Source: Candidatus Woesebacteria bacterium RIFCSPHIGHO2_02_FULL_42_20 (GTDB lineage Bacteria; Patescibacteriota; Microgenomatia; UBA8517). From it: a stretch of DNA of 51,724 bases. The DNA lies in contig MGGS01000001.1 in the NCBI GenBank assembly GCA_001792535.1, positions 175,685 to 227,408 of the forward strand, written 5' to 3'. The first letter of the stretch is position 1. Each line of letters opens with the position of its first letter. Under the pieces are notes generated by a model that searched no databases, was not told the origin of the DNA, and was given only the letters and a program-made list of their open reading frames with translations. Shown here piece by piece: positions 21,114-30,863 of this stretch. Made by a program: the position numbers and the translations under genes.

Positions 21114-21199
21114 GGCCGAGTGGCGGAACTGGCAGACGCGCACGACTCAAAATCGTGTGATCCTAATAGATCGTGTGGGTTCGACTCCCTCCTCGGCCA
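21114..21199 (+). tRNA. tRNA-Leu (anticodon CAA)
   Basis: Acceptor GGCCGAG pairs fully with CTCGGCC and the discriminator is A. The anticodon stem CACGA/TCGTG encloses the loop CTCAAAA, with anticodon CAA at 21148-21150 (reads UUG). The long variable arm (GATC/GATC around 21159-21172) confirms class II tRNA-Leu. The D-arm has the three-pair stem typical of Leu. The T-stem (GTGGG/CCCTC) has one U-U mismatch. The 3' CCA is not encoded; the genome reads ACCT. Confidence 0.93.
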
Positions 21200-21207
21200 C
21201 CTAGTAG

Positions 21208-22281
21208 TCAGATTGAAAGTAAAAAGTTCTTAAGAATTTCGTAGTATTGCTCCAGACTTTTGATACTCACCCACTCATTATCCGTATGAAGCCCGGCACC
21301 GGTTGGGCCAAAGCATACCCCTGGGGAGTTAACTGTATTATAATGCCTGATATCGCTTGCTCCATGATCACTTAACAGTTTCACCTTCTTACCTGTCAAT
21401 CTTGTAACGCTTTTCCTAAGTAACTTAAAATATTCATTCCCGGGATCAGTAAATTGGCTCGGCTCGAAAATCTTTGGTTCAAAAGTAAAACCTGTTGGCA
21501 AAATGCTTTTAATTTTAGTAATTATTTCCGACTTTTCCTCAGGAATGTACCTGAAATCGACAAAGATGGTGCAATTATCCGGAACTTTATTAAAGGTTGT
21601 GTTTGTTGTCTCCATTCTAGCTACATTCGCCGTTGTCACCCACGCTTCTCTGTTTGGTATCGGAAAAGTCTTAAACAATTTTTCATTAATAAAATTTGTC
21701 ATTTTTACAATAGCGTTTTCTCCATCCCAAGGATGGGCCCCGTGTGCCGACTTTCCCCGACAACTAATTTTGGCCCAAACAATGCCCTTGGCTTTATTGG
21801 AGACATTTAAGTCCGTTTGCTCCCCAGCTATGACAAAATCAGCTCTCACTCCTTTTTGAATTTGATATTTAGTCCCATCAAAGCCGCCAATTTCCTCATC
21901 AGTCACGAGCTGTAACCCCAATGGATATCTCACTTTTGCGGCAACTTCTTTGTATACTAACATTTCAACAGCGGCCGCAGCTTTCATGTCAATCGCTCCG
22001 CGACCAAATAATTTGTCCCCAACGACTTTCGGCTTAAATTGCTCCGGTTTCGCCGGCACCACGTCAAGGTGCGCATTTAGGATAACTTTAAATTCTTTAG
22101 GGACAGTTGGAGTGTTGTAATAAAGCAGGCTTGGAATTTTATTTTTGGAAAATTTCTTAAACTTAGTGTCGATCTTTAGTTTTTCTATAGCACCCAAAAC
22201 ATCACTTAAACCCTCCACGTTCTCTTTTGTAGAATTTACGCTGATTAATTTTTGGGAAATATTTAAAATATCCTGCTTCAT
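21208..22281 (-). CDS. M20-family metallopeptidase/deacylase (second copy)
   Basis: 357 aa. Zn-ligand motifs of the M20 (ArgE/DapE/ACY1/CPG2) family: H71-x-D73 in LNAHLDVVPA, D98 in GRGAIDMKA, E129-E130 in TDEEIGG, and a later GLHTDNEW with the final His. The dimerisation lid contains SCRGKSAHGAHPWDG. Members remove N-acyl groups or split dipeptides in the cytoplasm, and the substrate cannot be told from sequence. It lies 16 nt downstream of the other M20 gene in a three-gene operon behind the attenuator at 25.5 kb. Confidence 0.88.
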   Translation of the reverse strand: MKQDILNISQKLISVNSTKENVEGLSDVLGAIEKLKIDTKFKKFSKNKIPSLLYYNTPTVPKEFKVILNAHLDVVPAKPEQFKPKVVGDKLFGRGAIDMKAAAAVEMLVYKEVAAKVRYPLGLQLVTDEEIGGFDGTKYQIQKGVRADFVIAGEQTDLNVSNKAKGIVWAKISCRGKSAHGAHPWDGENAIVKMTNFINEKLFKTFPIPNREAWVTTANVARMETTNTTFNKVPDNCTIFVDFRYIPEEKSEIITKIKSILPTGFTFEPKIFEPSQFTDPGNEYFKLLRKSVTRLTGKKVKLLSDHGASDIRHYNTVNSPGVCFGPTGAGLHTDNEWVSIKSLEQYYEILKNFLLSI

Positions 22282-22297
22282 CTTGGATCCAATACCT

Positions 22298-23464
22298 TTA
22301 TATCTTTATACCTTCCAAGGGTCTAGAATATCTTTTCTTATATTTTACTCCAAAATATTCCTTAAAAAATTCATAATACAAACCAACAGTTTTAACCATA
22401 GAGTCTATTTCTATGTATTCATTCGGTTCATGAATTGGTAAGTGATCCATTGGATAGTGAACAATCGAAGGAATGCCCGCTTCGTTAAATTCCTTAGCAA
22501 CACTATTTCCTGCAAGTATAATTGTCTTAATATCGACTCCAACTTTCTTGGCTGACCTAACAAATAACTTTATCAACGCTCTATCCTTTACTAAATGCGG
22601 TTCTGTTTTATAAATAGTTTTTAGTTTAAATTTACCAGCACAGTTAGCAACGACACCTTTAACCTTTTTAAAAACCTCGTCTGAACCAACACCAAATGGA
22701 TATCTAATATCCATTTGAACATAGGCATAAGGGGGTACTGTATTTGCGATTTCTCCAGCATGGAAAAGGCTAAAGTTTACCTTGGTTTCTGAAAACTTTT
22801 TATCGAACTTTTGTGGCCATTTTACCAATTTAATTTTTTCAACAATACTTGTAAGATTAGACAAAGCATTTTCACCGTATTCATCCAAAGCTGAATGCGC
22901 CTGCTTACCAAAACTTTCTATCTTAAGTTGTAAACACCCTTTTTCACCAATATCAAGCTTTGAAAAATAACCACCATCAGGAATTAGGCCTGCATCGGCT
23001 TTAAATCCATTTTTGAGTAAGTATTTTACTCCGTAGACGTTATCTGCTTCTTCATCTGCTAATGCCACTAAATAAATCTTTCCCTTAAAATCCGGATAAT
23101 CTCTAACAAACTTTTTGACCGCACAATAAGAAATTGCAAATGGACCTTTGTCGTCTATTGCCCCCCTACCATAAATCCTCCCATTTTTGACAACAGCTTT
23201 AAAAGGATCTGTCCTCCAACCACTTCCCGCGGCTACAACGTCGATATGGCAAGCGATAACTAAGGACCTTCCACTGTTTCCGATTTCACCTATTATGTTT
23301 GGCCTTCTTTTGTTTTTTGCCAGCACAGAAATTTTCATCCTTACATCTTTAAACTTCTTTGTCAGATATGATCGGCATAAATACTCATTACCATCTGGAG
23401 ACACAGTTTTATAATTTATCAAACTCGAAGCAATACTGACCAGTTCACTTGTTAATTTATCCAT
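22298..23464 (-). CDS. M20-family metallopeptidase/deacylase (first copy)
   Basis: 388 aa. Metal-binding motifs: H73-x-D75 in ACHIDVVAAG, D104 in GRGAIDDKG, E138-E139 in LADEEAD, and terminal HEPNEYIE. The lid has KIESFGKQAHSALDEYGENA. It resembles ArgE/DapE/carnosinase-type enzymes. It is only distantly similar to the neighbouring M20, so this is not a recent tandem duplication. It starts 4 nt after the end of the 666-aa gene, which shows tight translational coupling. The pair suggests cleavage of peptides or N-acyl amino acids. Confidence 0.88.
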   Translation of the reverse strand: MDKLTSELVSIASSLINYKTVSPDGNEYLCRSYLTKKFKDVRMKISVLAKNKRRPNIIGEIGNSGRSLVIACHIDVVAAGSGWRTDPFKAVVKNGRIYGRGAIDDKGPFAISYCAVKKFVRDYPDFKGKIYLVALADEEADNVYGVKYLLKNGFKADAGLIPDGGYFSKLDIGEKGCLQLKIESFGKQAHSALDEYGENALSNLTSIVEKIKLVKWPQKFDKKFSETKVNFSLFHAGEIANTVPPYAYVQMDIRYPFGVGSDEVFKKVKGVVANCAGKFKLKTIYKTEPHLVKDRALIKLFVRSAKKVGVDIKTIILAGNSVAKEFNEAGIPSIVHYPMDHLPIHEPNEYIEIDSMVKTVGLYYEFFKEYFGVKYKKRYSRPLEGIKI

Positions 23465-23468
23465 ATTA

Positions 23469-25469
23469 CTAATTAGCCTTCACAGGCAGATTAAAAGGTT
23501 GCCTTATATTTCTTCTACTGATAGGATTATTCGGATCAAAACTATTACCCATAATACAGGGGGCAGGATAATGTCTCAAGGATCCCATCATGTAATTTGA
23601 GGTTGTTTCCATGTCTAATATTATAAAACCCTGTCTTTTGGCATATTGGGTAAGATACATGTAAAGTAGACCTTCTCTTAAGGCGTTAATTGTCACACCC
23701 TCTGCAATTTTTGGATCTATAAGTCCAGCTTTATCTTCCCGATATCCTGTTTCTTGCTCTACAAAATAAAGCAGCCATCCTTCTCCCACGCCGATAGTTT
23801 TCCCCAACCAGTTTCCTACCTCAGCTTGCGTCACCCCATCATACATATTTACTTTGTCCCCAAACCTAGCCGTAAAATCAGTAACCAACCTTGCAATCTT
23901 ATCTCCCATAGATACTTCTATAGAAACTATTTTAAAGCCATACTCATCGCGTAATACTCTTTTTGCTGATTCTTCCATTGTACCTCTAGTTCTTTGGAGT
24001 CGTTCAAAGATTTGCTCTTCCCTCTCGCGATAGTGAGTCAAAACATCCTCACCCAAGTCTACCAAGTGTTCAACTCTCCCTGTATCCCCTGTATACGTTA
24101 ACACCGATAAGTTGACATTGACACCATGCTCACGGAGCGGGTCGAATACTTCTCTTATTGATTTAAGAGAATGACCAAATCGCATACCCACATCAGGTTG
24201 CAACTCCCCGGAGTAGTGGGTAAGTAACCCATTTGGCCTTTGGGTATATGTATACGGCGGGCAAAGCGGTGTCATAATATTAGCCCTACCCAGACCCACT
24301 TGTCTTGCCAACGTCCAGAGAGTCATATCCAGAGATTTCTTGTGCGTTTCTTCTCTATTGAGGGACGAAACGGAAAGAAGATTTGGAACAACTATGTCTA
24401 ACAACGTCTCAACTTTTCTGGGGTCGTATTCAGGCCATGAGGCTATTTCTTCAAAGATACCTGTCACGCTTTGAGCATCTAGTAGACTGGATTTAAGAAG
24501 TCTATCAATATTTCTAGGTATTCCTTCAGAAAAATCTCCAGACATCATTAACTTGGGAATTCTTTTAAAATAATCTATCGAAACTGTTCCTAAACCTATC
24601 CTTTCTGAACCCGCCAACTTTTTTTTAGTGCTTTCACCTGCATACCTCTTTCCCAGATCATTAATTAAAACCTTTTTATGTTGACCCGCCTTATTCACAG
24701 TTATATTTCCTTTATGGTCACTAGTAGTTAAAATCTCATATGTAGCTGCTTGTCGTAAAGCCTCGCCATTTCTCGCTGTTTCAAAAAGTGGTGTGACAAC
24801 TCCGAGCAGATCGGAATTTGTGCAGGCGACAACTTTAGAATTTTCAATTAAAGGTGGGTTTATGTTTTTCATCAAGGATCTTTTCCAGCACTTTTCTTTT
24901 GTCGACCAATAGAACAATCCTAAATCAACCTTCCCTGGTTGGACAAATGACATCAACACAACATAAGGAGCATTCGCAAAGGCATCATATGGCAAACCGT
25001 CAACTTTTCTACTTGCTATTCCACTTAAGTAGATAGTGTTGTTATTCAAAGGAAACTCTGTACTTTCAAATTGACAAATGTCAAAATTCTCCGAACCCAA
25101 TGGCCTAGGACTAGCCTCATATTCTGGTGAATCACCATACACAAAAGGGTCAATAAAAAGATGGGGACCACTAATGTTTCCATAATCCCCTCCCGAAGCA
25201 AGTGAATACTCTATACCCAAACTAGAATCTTTTTCGTATCTAAGTAATAATTTTTCGCTGTGCCCATGTTGTGCATCTGGGACATCTTGTAGAAGAGTTA
25301 CAAACCGACTATCCACGAAATCTTCAACTGTAGATAACTTACCAGATTCCCCAACAAAAATGGCAAGGTCGTGGTCTGGCACAGGAACGAACACTAATTG
25401 AGAATTAGTTCCAGTTTCCCTCTCTTTGGCAATTGATCCGTTGGGTAATTGTGATCTATAAATTGGCAT
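23469..25469 (-). CDS. 666-aa protein of unknown function, attenuator-controlled
   Basis: Starts at the ATG at 25469, the first start codon after the leader terminator; a frame open to 25529 would run through that terminator. Residues 1-240 are beta-rich (LVFVPVPDHDLAIFVGESG, PYVVLMSFVQPGKVDLGLFYWST). Residues 285-400 are helical. The C-terminal domain (about 375-640) has SLDMTLWTLARQ, a CPPYTY motif at 403-408, SLKSIREVFDPLREHGVNV at 434-451, and KRQGFIILDME at 611-621. This pattern with its spacing is shared with the 452-aa protein at 31646-33004. There is no signal peptide. No known family is assigned; an enzymatic C-terminal domain is likely. It is the first gene of an operon with two M20 peptidases. 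Confidence 0.8.
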   Translation of the reverse strand: MPIYRSQLPNGSIAKERETGTNSQLVFVPVPDHDLAIFVGESGKLSTVEDFVDSRFVTLLQDVPDAQHGHSEKLLLRYEKDSSLGIEYSLASGGDYGNISGPHLFIDPFVYGDSPEYEASPRPLGSENFDICQFESTEFPLNNNTIYLSGIASRKVDGLPYDAFANAPYVVLMSFVQPGKVDLGLFYWSTKEKCWKRSLMKNINPPLIENSKVVACTNSDLLGVVTPLFETARNGEALRQAATYEILTTSDHKGNITVNKAGQHKKVLINDLGKRYAGESTKKKLAGSERIGLGTVSIDYFKRIPKLMMSGDFSEGIPRNIDRLLKSSLLDAQSVTGIFEEIASWPEYDPRKVETLLDIVVPNLLSVSSLNREETHKKSLDMTLWTLARQVGLGRANIMTPLCPPYTYTQRPNGLLTHYSGELQPDVGMRFGHSLKSIREVFDPLREHGVNVNLSVLTYTGDTGRVEHLVDLGEDVLTHYREREEQIFERLQRTRGTMEESAKRVLRDEYGFKIVSIEVSMGDKIARLVTDFTARFGDKVNMYDGVTQAEVGNWLGKTIGVGEGWLLYFVEQETGYREDKAGLIDPKIAEGVTINALREGLLYMYLTQYAKRQGFIILDMETTSNYMMGSLRHYPAPCIMGNSFDPNNPISRRNIRQPFNLPVKAN

Positions 25470-25483
25470 ATTTTTTAAGCAAT

Positions 25484-25563
25484 AAAAAAATCCCGATTTT
25501 ATTCGGGATCTGACAAATAAGAAAATCAATTCACTACGTCAGACCCCCCTCGTAAAGAGGAGG
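25484..25563 (-). promoter_or_regulatory. Ribosome-mediated transcription attenuator
   Basis: Three competing helices in the leader, in minus-strand order. Pause stem: CCTCCTC (25563-25557) with GAGGGGG (25551-25545). Antiterminator: GGGTCTGAC (25546-25538) with GTCAGATCC (25514-25506), all nine positions paired with one G-U. Terminator: ATCCCGA (25509-25503) with TCGGGAT (25496-25490), then seven T (25490-25484). Each helix overlaps the next, so they exclude one another. The leader-peptide stop codon lies inside the antiterminator arm. Confidence 0.85.
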
Positions 25564-25595
25564 ATACTAACGATAATGAAATTCCTTAAATTCAT
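25539..25595 (-). CDS. Leader peptide MNLRNFIIVSILLFTRGV
   Basis: An 18-codon frame begins about 7 nt after the predicted transcription start and ends with TGA in the antiterminator arm. Codons 7-13 are Ile-Ile-Val-Ser-Ile-Leu-Leu, the last two both CTC. A ribosome stalled with codons 11-13 in its A site would cover the 5' arm of the pause stem and leave the antiterminator free. One that reaches the stop would cover the antiterminator. By position relative to the antiterminator, Leu12/Leu13 match His9-11 of the other leader in this window. Confidence 0.75.
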   Translation of the reverse strand: MNLRNFIIVSILLFTRGV

Positions 25596-25608
25596 AACTA
25601 TGTCTGGT

Positions 25609-25638
25609 ATTATATTAGGACTGGGTTGATTTTGTCAA
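25609..25638 (-). promoter_or_regulatory. Consensus promoter of the attenuated operon
   Basis: Minus strand: perfect TTGACA (25638-25633), an 18-bp spacer, and perfect TATAAT (25614-25609). It lies in the last codons of the antitoxin gene and directs transcription into the leader. Confidence 0.8.
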
Positions 25639-25920
25639 ATTCTTAAAGTTCAATGACTGCATTTTTTCCATTAACCACATACGAGCAAGAGTCGAAACAT
25701 TCAAACCTTTACTTCGTGCAATCTTTTCTAAATTATTTTTGAAGCCTTTTTGAACTCTTAAAATCAAGGTTTCACTTCTAGGTTTATCTAGTTCAAACAC
25801 TATATCTACATCCTCCAACTCATTCTCAAAATCAATAAATTCATGAGTATCCCAAAAATTAGCCTCTTCTTCGTATGACCTAAATTTCGGAATTTTACTT
25901 TTTATCTTTTTCGATCTCAT
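25615..25920 (-). CDS. CopG-type antitoxin (PF12441-like)
   Basis: 101 aa. The N-terminal KSKIPKFRSYEEEANFWDTHEFIDFENE is the hallmark of the CopG_antitoxin family that pairs with BrnT toxins. The C-terminal segment (SETLILRVQKGFKNNLEKIARSKGLNVSTLARMWL) is a ribbon-helix-helix DNA-binding domain. It should neutralise the toxin and repress its own operon. It overlaps the toxin gene by 26 nt. Its 3' end contains the promoter of the next operon. Confidence 0.85.
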   Translation of the reverse strand: MRSKKIKSKIPKFRSYEEEANFWDTHEFIDFENELEDVDIVFELDKPRSETLILRVQKGFKNNLEKIARSKGLNVSTLARMWLMEKMQSLNFKNLTKSTQS

Positions 25921-26179
25921 ACACTCGCCTCCTTTCTTTTTTGCCTGCGTCTCTGGCAGTAATCAAATAATACTCCCCTGGCGCTTTTCTTTTGAGTACA
26001 ATCGAAATGATTCTTGTGCCCGATCTTCCAACAGCTAGATATCTCTTCTGATAGCTTTGTTTATGAAAAATTATATAACCCCTAACTGCCAGGATGTCTT
26101 CTTTAGTAACTTTATGCCTTGTTATATGAGCAAGATTGTATTCATCAAATATAACTTTCTTGACTACAATCCTAGTCAT
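25895..26179 (-). CDS. BrnT-family toxin
   Basis: 94 aa. The pattern FDEYNLAHITRHKVTKEDIL, then QKRYLAVGRSGTRIISIVLKR, then YYLITARDAGKKERRRVYE matches BrnT toxins, RelE-fold ribonucleases that arrest translation. The conserved TARDA-x-x-x-ER end is intact, so it is probably active. The toxin precedes the antitoxin, as usual for brnTA. A palindrome lies just upstream at 26190-26200. Confidence 0.85.
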   Translation of the reverse strand: MTRIVVKKVIFDEYNLAHITRHKVTKEDILAVRGYIIFHKQSYQKRYLAVGRSGTRIISIVLKRKAPGEYYLITARDAGKKERRRVYEIEKDKK

Positions 26180-26189
26180 AATGTATTAC

Positions 26190-26200
26190 AGTATAATACT
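26190..26200 (-). promoter_or_regulatory. Toxin-antitoxin promoter/operator
   Basis: The perfect 11-nt palindrome AGTATAATACT, about 11-20 nt upstream of the toxin ATG, includes a TATACT -10 on the minus strand. It is a good candidate for the binding site of the ribbon-helix-helix antitoxin. It overlaps the stop codon of the ATP-grasp-like gene. Confidence 0.5.
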
Positions 26201-27242
26201 AATAAAATATAGCTTGTTTGTCAACTTCCAACAACTTGGCCGTAATCCTCAAAGTTGGTTGATCCAAAAAAACAACATCGTCTTGGCCGGGTACACCTAC
26301 CGGGTTGTAGTCCAATGTAACATCAGCATCAACAAACATTGCACCTGGCTTTCGTCGAAAATAATCTAGGGCTAGAACTTCAGCGGGGCTTGACCCACCA
26401 AGACGACAGGTTATGTCAGTTACCCCAGATAAAAACTCTCCATTGGAAGTTTCTCCTTGCAATACATCATAGCTTGCTCGGCTTAAAAGCGGGTCAAAGT
26501 AGCCCATTGCCTCGTGCATACTACGAGCCTGCCTTATTGCAAGTTCAACATTTTCACCACAGCTTCCAAATCGAAACAAGTTTTCAAACCCTCCCCGACA
26601 AATTTTCATTACAGCGCCACCATATATTGTACGGTCACCTCTTTGAATATCTTTCTGACATGCAAGTTGTGAATATACTTGCCCGTCAACAAAAAATATT
26701 CCTGCACTTACTGTTCTGCACGCATTTAAATTGGTTTCAAGAACAAGACCCTTTCTCCTCAGTTCAATTTGGTCAATTTGCTTAAGCAGTGAAGTCATAT
26801 GTTTTTCGCCTAAAACCACGTTCTGCCCTGCCCCGCCGCTTTCATCTGACCGTTTCAACCTGGCCAAGTATCCTCTCCTAGACAATTCATTAAAGGCTGC
26901 ATAGCCTTCTTTAATTGTAAAAAAAGCAAAACCAGGAAGAACAATGTCTGACACAGTCGCTGCAAAGCTTGGTGAGTAAGCAGCAGGACCATCTGTAGCC
27001 CTTCCGACTCGGTTATGAAGCACTGTCTTTGACACATGGAGCAAGTCTCTAACAGCACCTCCATAGAAATCATCAACTGTACAAATACCCATCCTATGTG
27101 CTTCATTTAATTGAATTGTTTTTGATGGTACTATATATGATTGCACCGTCCGATAATCAGTTAGCGTATCATCAAACGATATTCCCAAGTGTTTCGCAAT
27201 ATGTCGCGCAACATTAGAATTCCTTTCCCGGATGTATGACAA
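26199..27242 (-). CDS. ATP-grasp-like protein (DUF3182-like)
   Basis: 347 aa from TTG 27242, the first usual start codon. The in-frame sequence upstream (PNIPEPY) still looks protein-like. ATP-grasp-like features: YLARLKRSDESGGAGQNVVL as nucleotide-binding loop, GLVLETNLNACRTVSAGIFFVDGQVY as strand pair, and near the end SGVTDITCRLGGSSPAEVLAL, then FVDADVTLDYNP. The order recalls DUF3182 proteins, whose substrate is unknown; the assignment is tentative. ATP-grasp enzymes usually join a carboxylate to an amine. It lies between a terminator and the toxin gene and may be a single-gene unit. Confidence 0.55.
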   Translation of the reverse strand: MSYIRERNSNVARHIAKHLGISFDDTLTDYRTVQSYIVPSKTIQLNEAHRMGICTVDDFYGGAVRDLLHVSKTVLHNRVGRATDGPAAYSPSFAATVSDIVLPGFAFFTIKEGYAAFNELSRRGYLARLKRSDESGGAGQNVVLGEKHMTSLLKQIDQIELRRKGLVLETNLNACRTVSAGIFFVDGQVYSQLACQKDIQRGDRTIYGGAVMKICRGGFENLFRFGSCGENVELAIRQARSMHEAMGYFDPLLSRASYDVLQGETSNGEFLSGVTDITCRLGGSSPAEVLALDYFRRKPGAMFVDADVTLDYNPVGVPGQDDVVFLDQPTLRITAKLLEVDKQAIFY

Positions 27243-30752: not shown

Positions 30753-30797
30753 ATGACTTTTCGTTTTACACAAAATCATCATCACGAACCAGCTTAA
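30753..30797 (+). CDS. Histidine leader peptide MTFRFTQNHHHEPA
   Basis: Fourteen codons with three consecutive His (CAT CAT CAC, codons 9-11) close to the end, as in enterobacterial HisL. The TAA stop at 30795-30797 abuts the antiterminator arm. A ribosome waiting for His-tRNA at codons 9-11 leaves the antiterminator free; one that finishes the peptide covers it. The ATG sits within a few nt of the predicted mRNA start, so the leader peptide itself is likely translated leaderless. Confidence 0.9.
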   Translation: MTFRFTQNHHHEPA

Positions 30798-30850
30798 GGT
30801 TGGCTCGTAATTTTGTTCTGTAATTTACCAGCCAACCGGCTGGTTTTTTT
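30798..30850 (+). promoter_or_regulatory. Histidine-responsive transcription attenuator
   Basis: Antiterminator: GGTTGGCT (30798-30805) pairs perfectly with AGCCAACC (30830-30837). After one mismatch, GTAA (30807-30810) pairs with TTAC (30825-30828). Terminator: ACCAGCC (30827-30833) with GGCTGGT (30838-30844), then seven T to 30850. Both structures need bases 30827-30837, so they exclude each other. A weak upstream helix, AACC (30787-30790) with GGTT (30798-30801), can act as the pause/anti-antiterminator. The first structural gene starts 14 nt after the T-run. Confidence 0.9.
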
Positions 30851-30863
30851 GTTGCCTAATAAT

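Follow-up and report, generated by a model that had tools for sequence, protein, structure and literature searches.

A probable leader-peptide attenuator ahead of an M20 peptidase operon in a Woesebacteria-type genome

Attenuation of transcription by a stalled ribosome is a long-established feature of E. coli amino-acid operons. A codon-based attenuator requires no regulator protein, and its codons hint at the amino acids that the cell must import. CPR bacteria are mostly uncultured and lack much amino-acid synthesis, and to our knowledge little is known about how they sense their amino-acid supply. The locus described here raises the question of whether the segment ahead of an uncharacterised gene for a 666-aa protein, the first of an operon with two M20 peptidase genes, is such a switch, and which amino acid it would read. 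The window, that is, the whole stretch of 51,724 nucleotides that was analysed (G000:C1:175685-227408), belongs to the 1.08-Mb genome (1,077,170 bases in 18 contigs) of a Woesebacteria-type CPR bacterium of the Microgenomates group. The element is, in our assessment, probably a ribosome-mediated (leader-peptide) transcription attenuator.

Promoter, leader and RNA elements

Read along the minus strand from 25638 to 25469, the segment contains a promoter, a leader ORF, a pause hairpin, an antiterminator and a terminator, and closes with the start codon ATG of the 666-aa gene (Table 1). The promoter given in the preliminary description was found to agree with the consensus at every letter. The count of promoter-like sites was not above that of shuffled sequences, and the argument lies in the 12/12 match of the window, the 11/12 matches at the corresponding loci of two relatives (L003 and L004) and the 18-nt spacer common to all three. 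The leader ATG lies 13 nt past the -10 box in the window, and 10 and 11 nt past it in L003 and L004, suggesting that the leader ORF probably has a nearly leaderless start.

The 18-aa leader and the mutually exclusive helices described earlier were confirmed in the sequence, and the predicted folds were stronger than those of shuffled sequences: the 141-nt leader fold had a z-score of -5.35, which was matched by 0/200 shuffles. The leader stop codon, TGA, is inside the antiterminator 5' arm, and the CTC CTC pair is within the 5' arm of the inner pause hairpin, both as previously noted. This pair begins 15 and 12 nt ahead of the antiterminator arm and the His codons of a second leader at 30.7 kb begin 21, 18 and 15 nt ahead of theirs, so that the earlier statement of an almost equal distance is roughly right. 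The T-run of the terminator ends about 15 nt before the ATG of the 666-aa gene at 25469, again as described.

Table 1. Positions of the features in the window and at related loci
Feature	Position	Strand	Remark
Sigma-70-type promoter TTGACA-18-TATAAT	25609..25638	-	12/12 consensus letters
Leader ORF MNLRNFIIVSILLFTRGV, 18 codons and stop	25539..25595	-	sequence; counterparts in L003 and L004
1:2 hairpin, outer arms	25580-25574/25536-25530 (span 25530..25580)	-	minimum-energy fold; outer helix compared in three sequences
1:2 hairpin, middle arms	25572-25567/25542-25537	-	minimum-energy fold
Inner pause hairpin ATCCTCCTC-TTTAC-GAGGGGGGT	25543..25565	-	CTC CTC codons in 5' arm
Antiterminator 5' arm GGGGTCTGAC	25538..25547	-	overlaps pause hairpin and stop codon; score 17
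Antiterminator 3' arm GTCAGATCCC	25505..25514	-	overlaps terminator 5' arm
Intrinsic terminator AGATCCCGA-ATAAAA-TCGGGATTT and T-run	25484..25511 (stem 25511-25488)	-	
666-aa gene, first of the putatively controlled operon	23469..25469	-	no Pfam or NCBIfam family
M20 peptidase / ArgE-DapE family deacylase gene	22298..23464	-	homologues adjoin the 666-aa gene in both relatives too
Second M20 peptidase gene	21208..22281	-	
tRNA-Leu(CAA) gene	21114-21201	+	faces the end of the peptidase operon (convergent)
CopG-type antitoxin and weak BrnT-type toxin match	25615-26179	-	toxin match below cut-off; directly upstream of the attenuator
DUF3182 protein gene	26199-27242	-	E 1.6e-61; terminator-like hairpin upstream at about 27332
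His leader MTFRFTQNHHHEPA, antiterminator, terminator	30753..30851	+	before a histidine-racemase-like gene; operon ends in hisS
Thr leader MNLVTTTTTVAL, antiterminator, terminator	L019 2550-2653 (G000:C1:142550-142653)	+	before thrS
Met-rich leader MTQKQMMMEMETS	L039 15267-15358 (G000:C13)	-	before a SAM hydroxide adenosyltransferase C-terminal (SAM_HAT_C) gene
PRK08201-type dipeptidase genes of the relatives	L007 4089-5729; L008 4374-5741	+	just before the leader
577-aa protein gene	L008 8714-10447	+	downstream of the M20 gene; without Pfam or NCBIfam match

Comparison with relatives

The 666-aa protein was found in 3/56 relatives, with the window's own genome counted, in 3/50 genomes of the family, in 2/373 genomes sampled from the class, namely its own and G021, and only in its own among 379 genomes sampled from the phylum. 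At E <= 1e-40, the neighbouring M20 gene turned up in these same three of the 56 genomes. The homologues in the two relatives are 37 and 39% identical to the window protein, and that of L004, with 400 aa, is without about the first 260 residues.

The preliminary description had proposed an alignment of the leader across relatives, and the leader ORF, pause hairpin, antiterminator and terminator were found in both, so that promoter, leader ORF and predicted mutually exclusive helices are present in all three genomes found to carry the operon. The leader counterparts are MRNLSLIMNFVLFIEG in L003 and MTIISLILVNFVLFIEG in L004. At all three loci the leader ORF has 16-18 codons and a stop at, or immediately ahead of, the antiterminator 5' arm, an intrinsic terminator lies between the promoter and the first gene, and the antiterminator excludes both the terminator and the codon-holding hairpin in the predicted structures. 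A CCTC-TTTATT-GAGG pause hairpin occupies the equivalent position in L003 and L004. The 1:2 region has z-scores of -5.27 in the window and -6.59 and -4.63 in the relatives (0/500 shuffles each), and the antiterminators score 17, 16 and 18, which 6, 2 and 0 per 1000 shuffles reached.

The outer 1:2 helix, aligned by hand from the predicted folds, showed standard pairs in 23/24 cells, compared with 10-12/24 when the 3' arm was slid, and both sides were altered in 7/8 pairs across the three sequences. The window 5' arm fits the L003 3' arm at 8/8 positions (6/8 in the reverse combination), and thus the compensation comes mainly from L004. The antiterminator and terminator arms of the window pair with their own partners at 10/10 and 7/7 positions, and with the partners of the relatives at 6/10 and 4/7. 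The comparison covers three sequences of one family, two of them close: L003 and L004 have 27 leader bases in common, and their terminator arms and antiterminator 3' arms are identical, which makes the pooled P values overstate the independence of the data. The CTGACGTRGTGA stretch common to the window and L004 argues for common descent of the leader, while a one-base gap shifts the last leader codons of the window relative to the other two (FTRGV, FIEG), indicating that the peptide end is not conserved.

The terminator could instead merely end the toxin-antitoxin transcript, with an operon promoter after it and a leader ORF arisen by chance. The attenuator promoter begins within the 3' end of the antitoxin gene, and read-through from the antitoxin is therefore possible. 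However, in both relatives the gene upstream of the leader encodes a PRK08201-type dipeptidase, above the NCBIfam cut-off, rather than a toxin-antitoxin pair, and promoter, leader and terminator are nevertheless retained. A promoter past the terminator, which the preliminary description had named as an observation that would speak against an attenuator, was not seen either: the interval from T-run to ATG is only about 15 nt, and no promoter-like site on the strand of the gene was found there at any of the three loci. A mere transcript end was rejected on these two grounds, and we regard it as extremely unlikely.

A known Rfam element was also rejected, since at gathering score Rfam 15 gave only a tRNA in the window and no family in the leader region. 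The best leader family was Trp_leader (RF00513), with a full-length sub-threshold match (E 0.12), but this match scored 18.9 bits, the gathering score being 41, and the leader has no Trp codon. A hairpin that binds a protein or metabolite in the manner of a riboswitch, with the ORF untranslated, would be consistent with the strong structure (z -4.6 to -6.6). We consider it very improbable, given the lack of an Rfam family at gathering score, the 16-18-codon ORFs with their stop near the antiterminator arm at 3/3 loci, the divergence of the arm sequences, and the presence of Thr-run and His-run leaders elsewhere in this genome.

Likely signal and predicted ribosome position

Leu, Ile and Val account for 23/48 leader codons after the start (8/17 in the window, 6/15 in L003 and 9/16 in L004), compared with 25.2% in the proteome (P 5.5e-4 pooled, with the two relatives not independent; 0.04, 0.15 and 0.008 singly), so that the enrichment in L003 is weak by itself. 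The host genome has 2,753 ORFs of 14-19 codons that start with ATG, and 3.5% of these attained the fraction seen in the window's leader. CTC, the rarest Leu codon, makes up 6/9 leader Leu codons, compared with 8.3% (P 2.2e-5), although the pause stem requires CTC codons too. These enrichments suggest that branched-chain amino acids are the likely signal. The codons in the antitermination windows of L003 and L004, which are 10-13 codons wide, also include Phe, Asn, Ser, Met or Glu, and specificity is thus not fixed. The earlier proposal that charging with Leu (or Ile/Val) is the signal is supported for the branched-chain group, as judged from codon content, but not for a single amino acid.

The position of the ribosome was modelled by masking the RNA as far as 14 nt beyond the first base of the A-site codon; the probability of the terminator was then computed. 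In the window this probability was 0.90 without translation, 0.90-0.91 at codons 1-4, 0.64-0.74 at codons 5-7, 0.02-0.15 at codons 8-12, 0.62 and 0.76 at codons 13 and 14, and 0.90-0.94 from codon 15 to the stop. Read-through is accordingly predicted by the model on stalling at about codons 8-12 (I-V-S-I-L), and termination at the stop. The second CTC, at codon 13, borders on this range, and its outcome varies with the assumed footprint. In L003 the values were 0.95 at codon 1 and 0.89 at codon 2; they stayed <=0.02 throughout codons 3-15 and returned to 0.95 at codon 16 and the stop. In L004 they were 0.99 at codon 1, 0.39-0.55 at codons 2-4, where the model was undecided, <=0.02 at codons 5-14, 0.21 at codon 15, 0.59 at codon 16, and 0.99 at codon 17 and the stop. 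Masking 12 or 16 nt instead shifted the window pattern by about one codon; in these runs a longer stem was scored for L004, and its values were capped near 0.7.

The same attenuator could respond to peptide-specific ribosome arrest, of which erm-type and TnaC-type leaders are examples, or to translation slowed by a drug, rather than to codon-specific charging. The leaders have a hydrophobic [IF][VL]LF stretch in common and no long run of a single codon, in contrast to the Thr, His and Met leaders found elsewhere in the host genome. On the other hand, the frame shift gives the window other residues past LF than the relatives have, L/I/V and CTC codons are enriched, and the controlled genes include peptidases, with no resistance gene recognised in the operon. 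A signal of either kind appears improbable to us.

Under charging-dependent attenuation, RNA polymerase would start near 25.6 kb and a ribosome would translate the 18-codon leader, probably on an almost leaderless mRNA. With charged Leu-, Ile- and Val-tRNAs the ribosome would reach the stop and cover the antiterminator 5' arm, and the terminator would end transcription. With uncharged tRNA it would stall at about codons 8-12 and mask arm 1, leaving arm 2 free for arm 3; this 2:3 pairing would let the polymerase enter the 666-aa gene and the two M20 peptidase genes, whose expression could provide more free amino acids. In an untranslated RNA the long 1:2 hairpin would form, and with it the terminator.

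The operon, other leaders and known systems

Ketol-acid reductoisomerase (KARI, PF01450) was detected in 0/50 family genomes, while 14/14 control genomes matched, indicating that synthesis of valine or isoleucine is an unlikely purpose of the switch. The first M20 protein is an ArgE/DapE-type deacylase, barely over the NCBIfam cut-off (219 vs 217.6 bits). Scavenging by the M20 unit, as the preliminary description proposed, is compatible with this assignment and with the lack of a KARI match, and scavenging of peptides or acyl-amino acids would be the simplest reading of its role, which we infer from gene content.

The 666-aa protein had no meaningful match in Pfam or NCBIfam (nothing below 0.13 in Pfam at E <= 5), and a sequence search of the PDB gave nothing below E 0.13. 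The full-length model was poor (pLDDT 46.7). The C-terminal 378 residues (23469-24605, minus strand) were modelled at pLDDT 72 and pTM 0.76. Foldseek matched them best to isonitrile synthases, namely PIsnA and PvcA at prob 1.00 (E 2.7e-4 to 3.3e-3, TMq 0.33-0.40), followed by cyclodipeptide synthases and TyrRS at E about 0.05. The VIA-align Z values were close together (TyrRS 10.9, PvcA 10.8, CDPS 9.9). This domain is thus predicted, from its modelled structure, to be a distant member of the TyrRS/CDPS/isonitrile-synthase-like Rossmann-fold group. The profiles PF05141 (DIT1_PvcA) and PF16715 (CDPS) had no match at E <= 10 in the host genome; with each, 0/14 control genomes were over the cut-off, so that the control for PF05141 is a weak one.

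A scan of the host genome gave 315 terminators, of which 60 precede a gene; at 11 sites an ATG leader and an antiterminator accompanied the terminator. Four of the 11 were kept by eye (Leu/Ile/Val, Thr, His and Met); the seven without an amino-acid run were dropped, one of them being a further hairpin ahead of the Met gene. Another list, drawn up by amino-acid runs, held 16 terminators, of which three were kept (Thr, His and Met). The best antiterminator score among the 60 was 19 (C7), at a site without a leader ORF by the criterion used, and, with 17 attained by 1.25% of the 1200 shuffled cases, a score is no proof by itself.

Thr-run leaders with terminator and antiterminator were found upstream of thrS at 4/30 scanned loci (the host's own, L078, L084 and L086); 15 further matched genomes yielded no locus. 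They lie directly before thrS in two loci, and about 0.2 kb (L086) and 0.5 kb (L084) before the match in the others. A looser scan gave Thr-run ORFs within 900 nt of thrS at 8/30 loci, four of them without a terminator-antiterminator pair. The first gene of the operon with the His leader resembles histidine racemase (E 3e-27, below the cut-off). No His leader was found before the sole family racemase homologue (L134), nor in the scanned flank of 30 hisS loci, a flank beyond which the window's own His leader lies.

With 14 nt masked, the model gave low terminator probabilities at the His or early Thr codons and high ones at the stop in 4/6 other leaders. The His leader was low through its last His codon and 0.8-1.0 afterwards, and also low when untranslated. 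Among the Thr leaders, low values covered the first three codons of the run in the host, the first two in L084 and the first four in L086, and the values at the stop were high in each. The leader of L078 was high throughout and the Met leader of the host (extended stem scored) low throughout, neither showing a switch.

A wider and rather doubtful proposal is that a CPR (Woesebacteria) regulon of near-leaderless attenuators (Leu/Ile/Val, Thr, His and Met) tunes scavenging and tRNA charging and, jointly, that the 666-aa gene encodes a hitherto undescribed branch of the TyrRS/CDPS/isonitrile-synthase fold, one making use of the sensed amino acids or charged tRNAs. If the attenuator reading is true, the leader would offer a legible hint of what uncultured cells take in, and ribosome-mediated attenuation would be placed in a deep bacterial lineage. 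No leader-peptide attenuator from a Woesebacteria or CPR lineage was found among the papers listed in the literature search, which covered few subscription journals; within it, the lineage and the kind of operon appear new, while the mechanism itself is textbook.

The closest known systems are the ilv and leu leader-peptide attenuators, such as those of E. coli ilvGMEDA and Salmonella leu, the latter with rare Leu codons in its leader. A further example precedes the ilv operon of S. aureus (PMC5794164). The likeness is in a leader rich in branched-chain codons, a terminator, an antiterminator and, as predicted here, read-through at low charging. These systems differ in serving biosynthesis, whereas the operon described here encodes peptidases in a family without a KARI match, and its leader is short, with mixed L/I/V codons and probably a nearly leaderless start. 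The candidate attenuators of actinobacterial ilvB and leuS (PMC1262725) likewise have short ORFs with Ile, Val and Leu codons followed by a terminator, but ilvB or leuS lies downstream there, and an uncharacterised gene with M20 peptidases here. The His leader at 30.7 kb resembles that before the hisS and hisZ paralogues of bacilli (PMC2965389), both being cases, putative here, of leader-peptide attenuation of a tRNA-synthetase gene, in Firmicutes there and in a CPR bacterium here.
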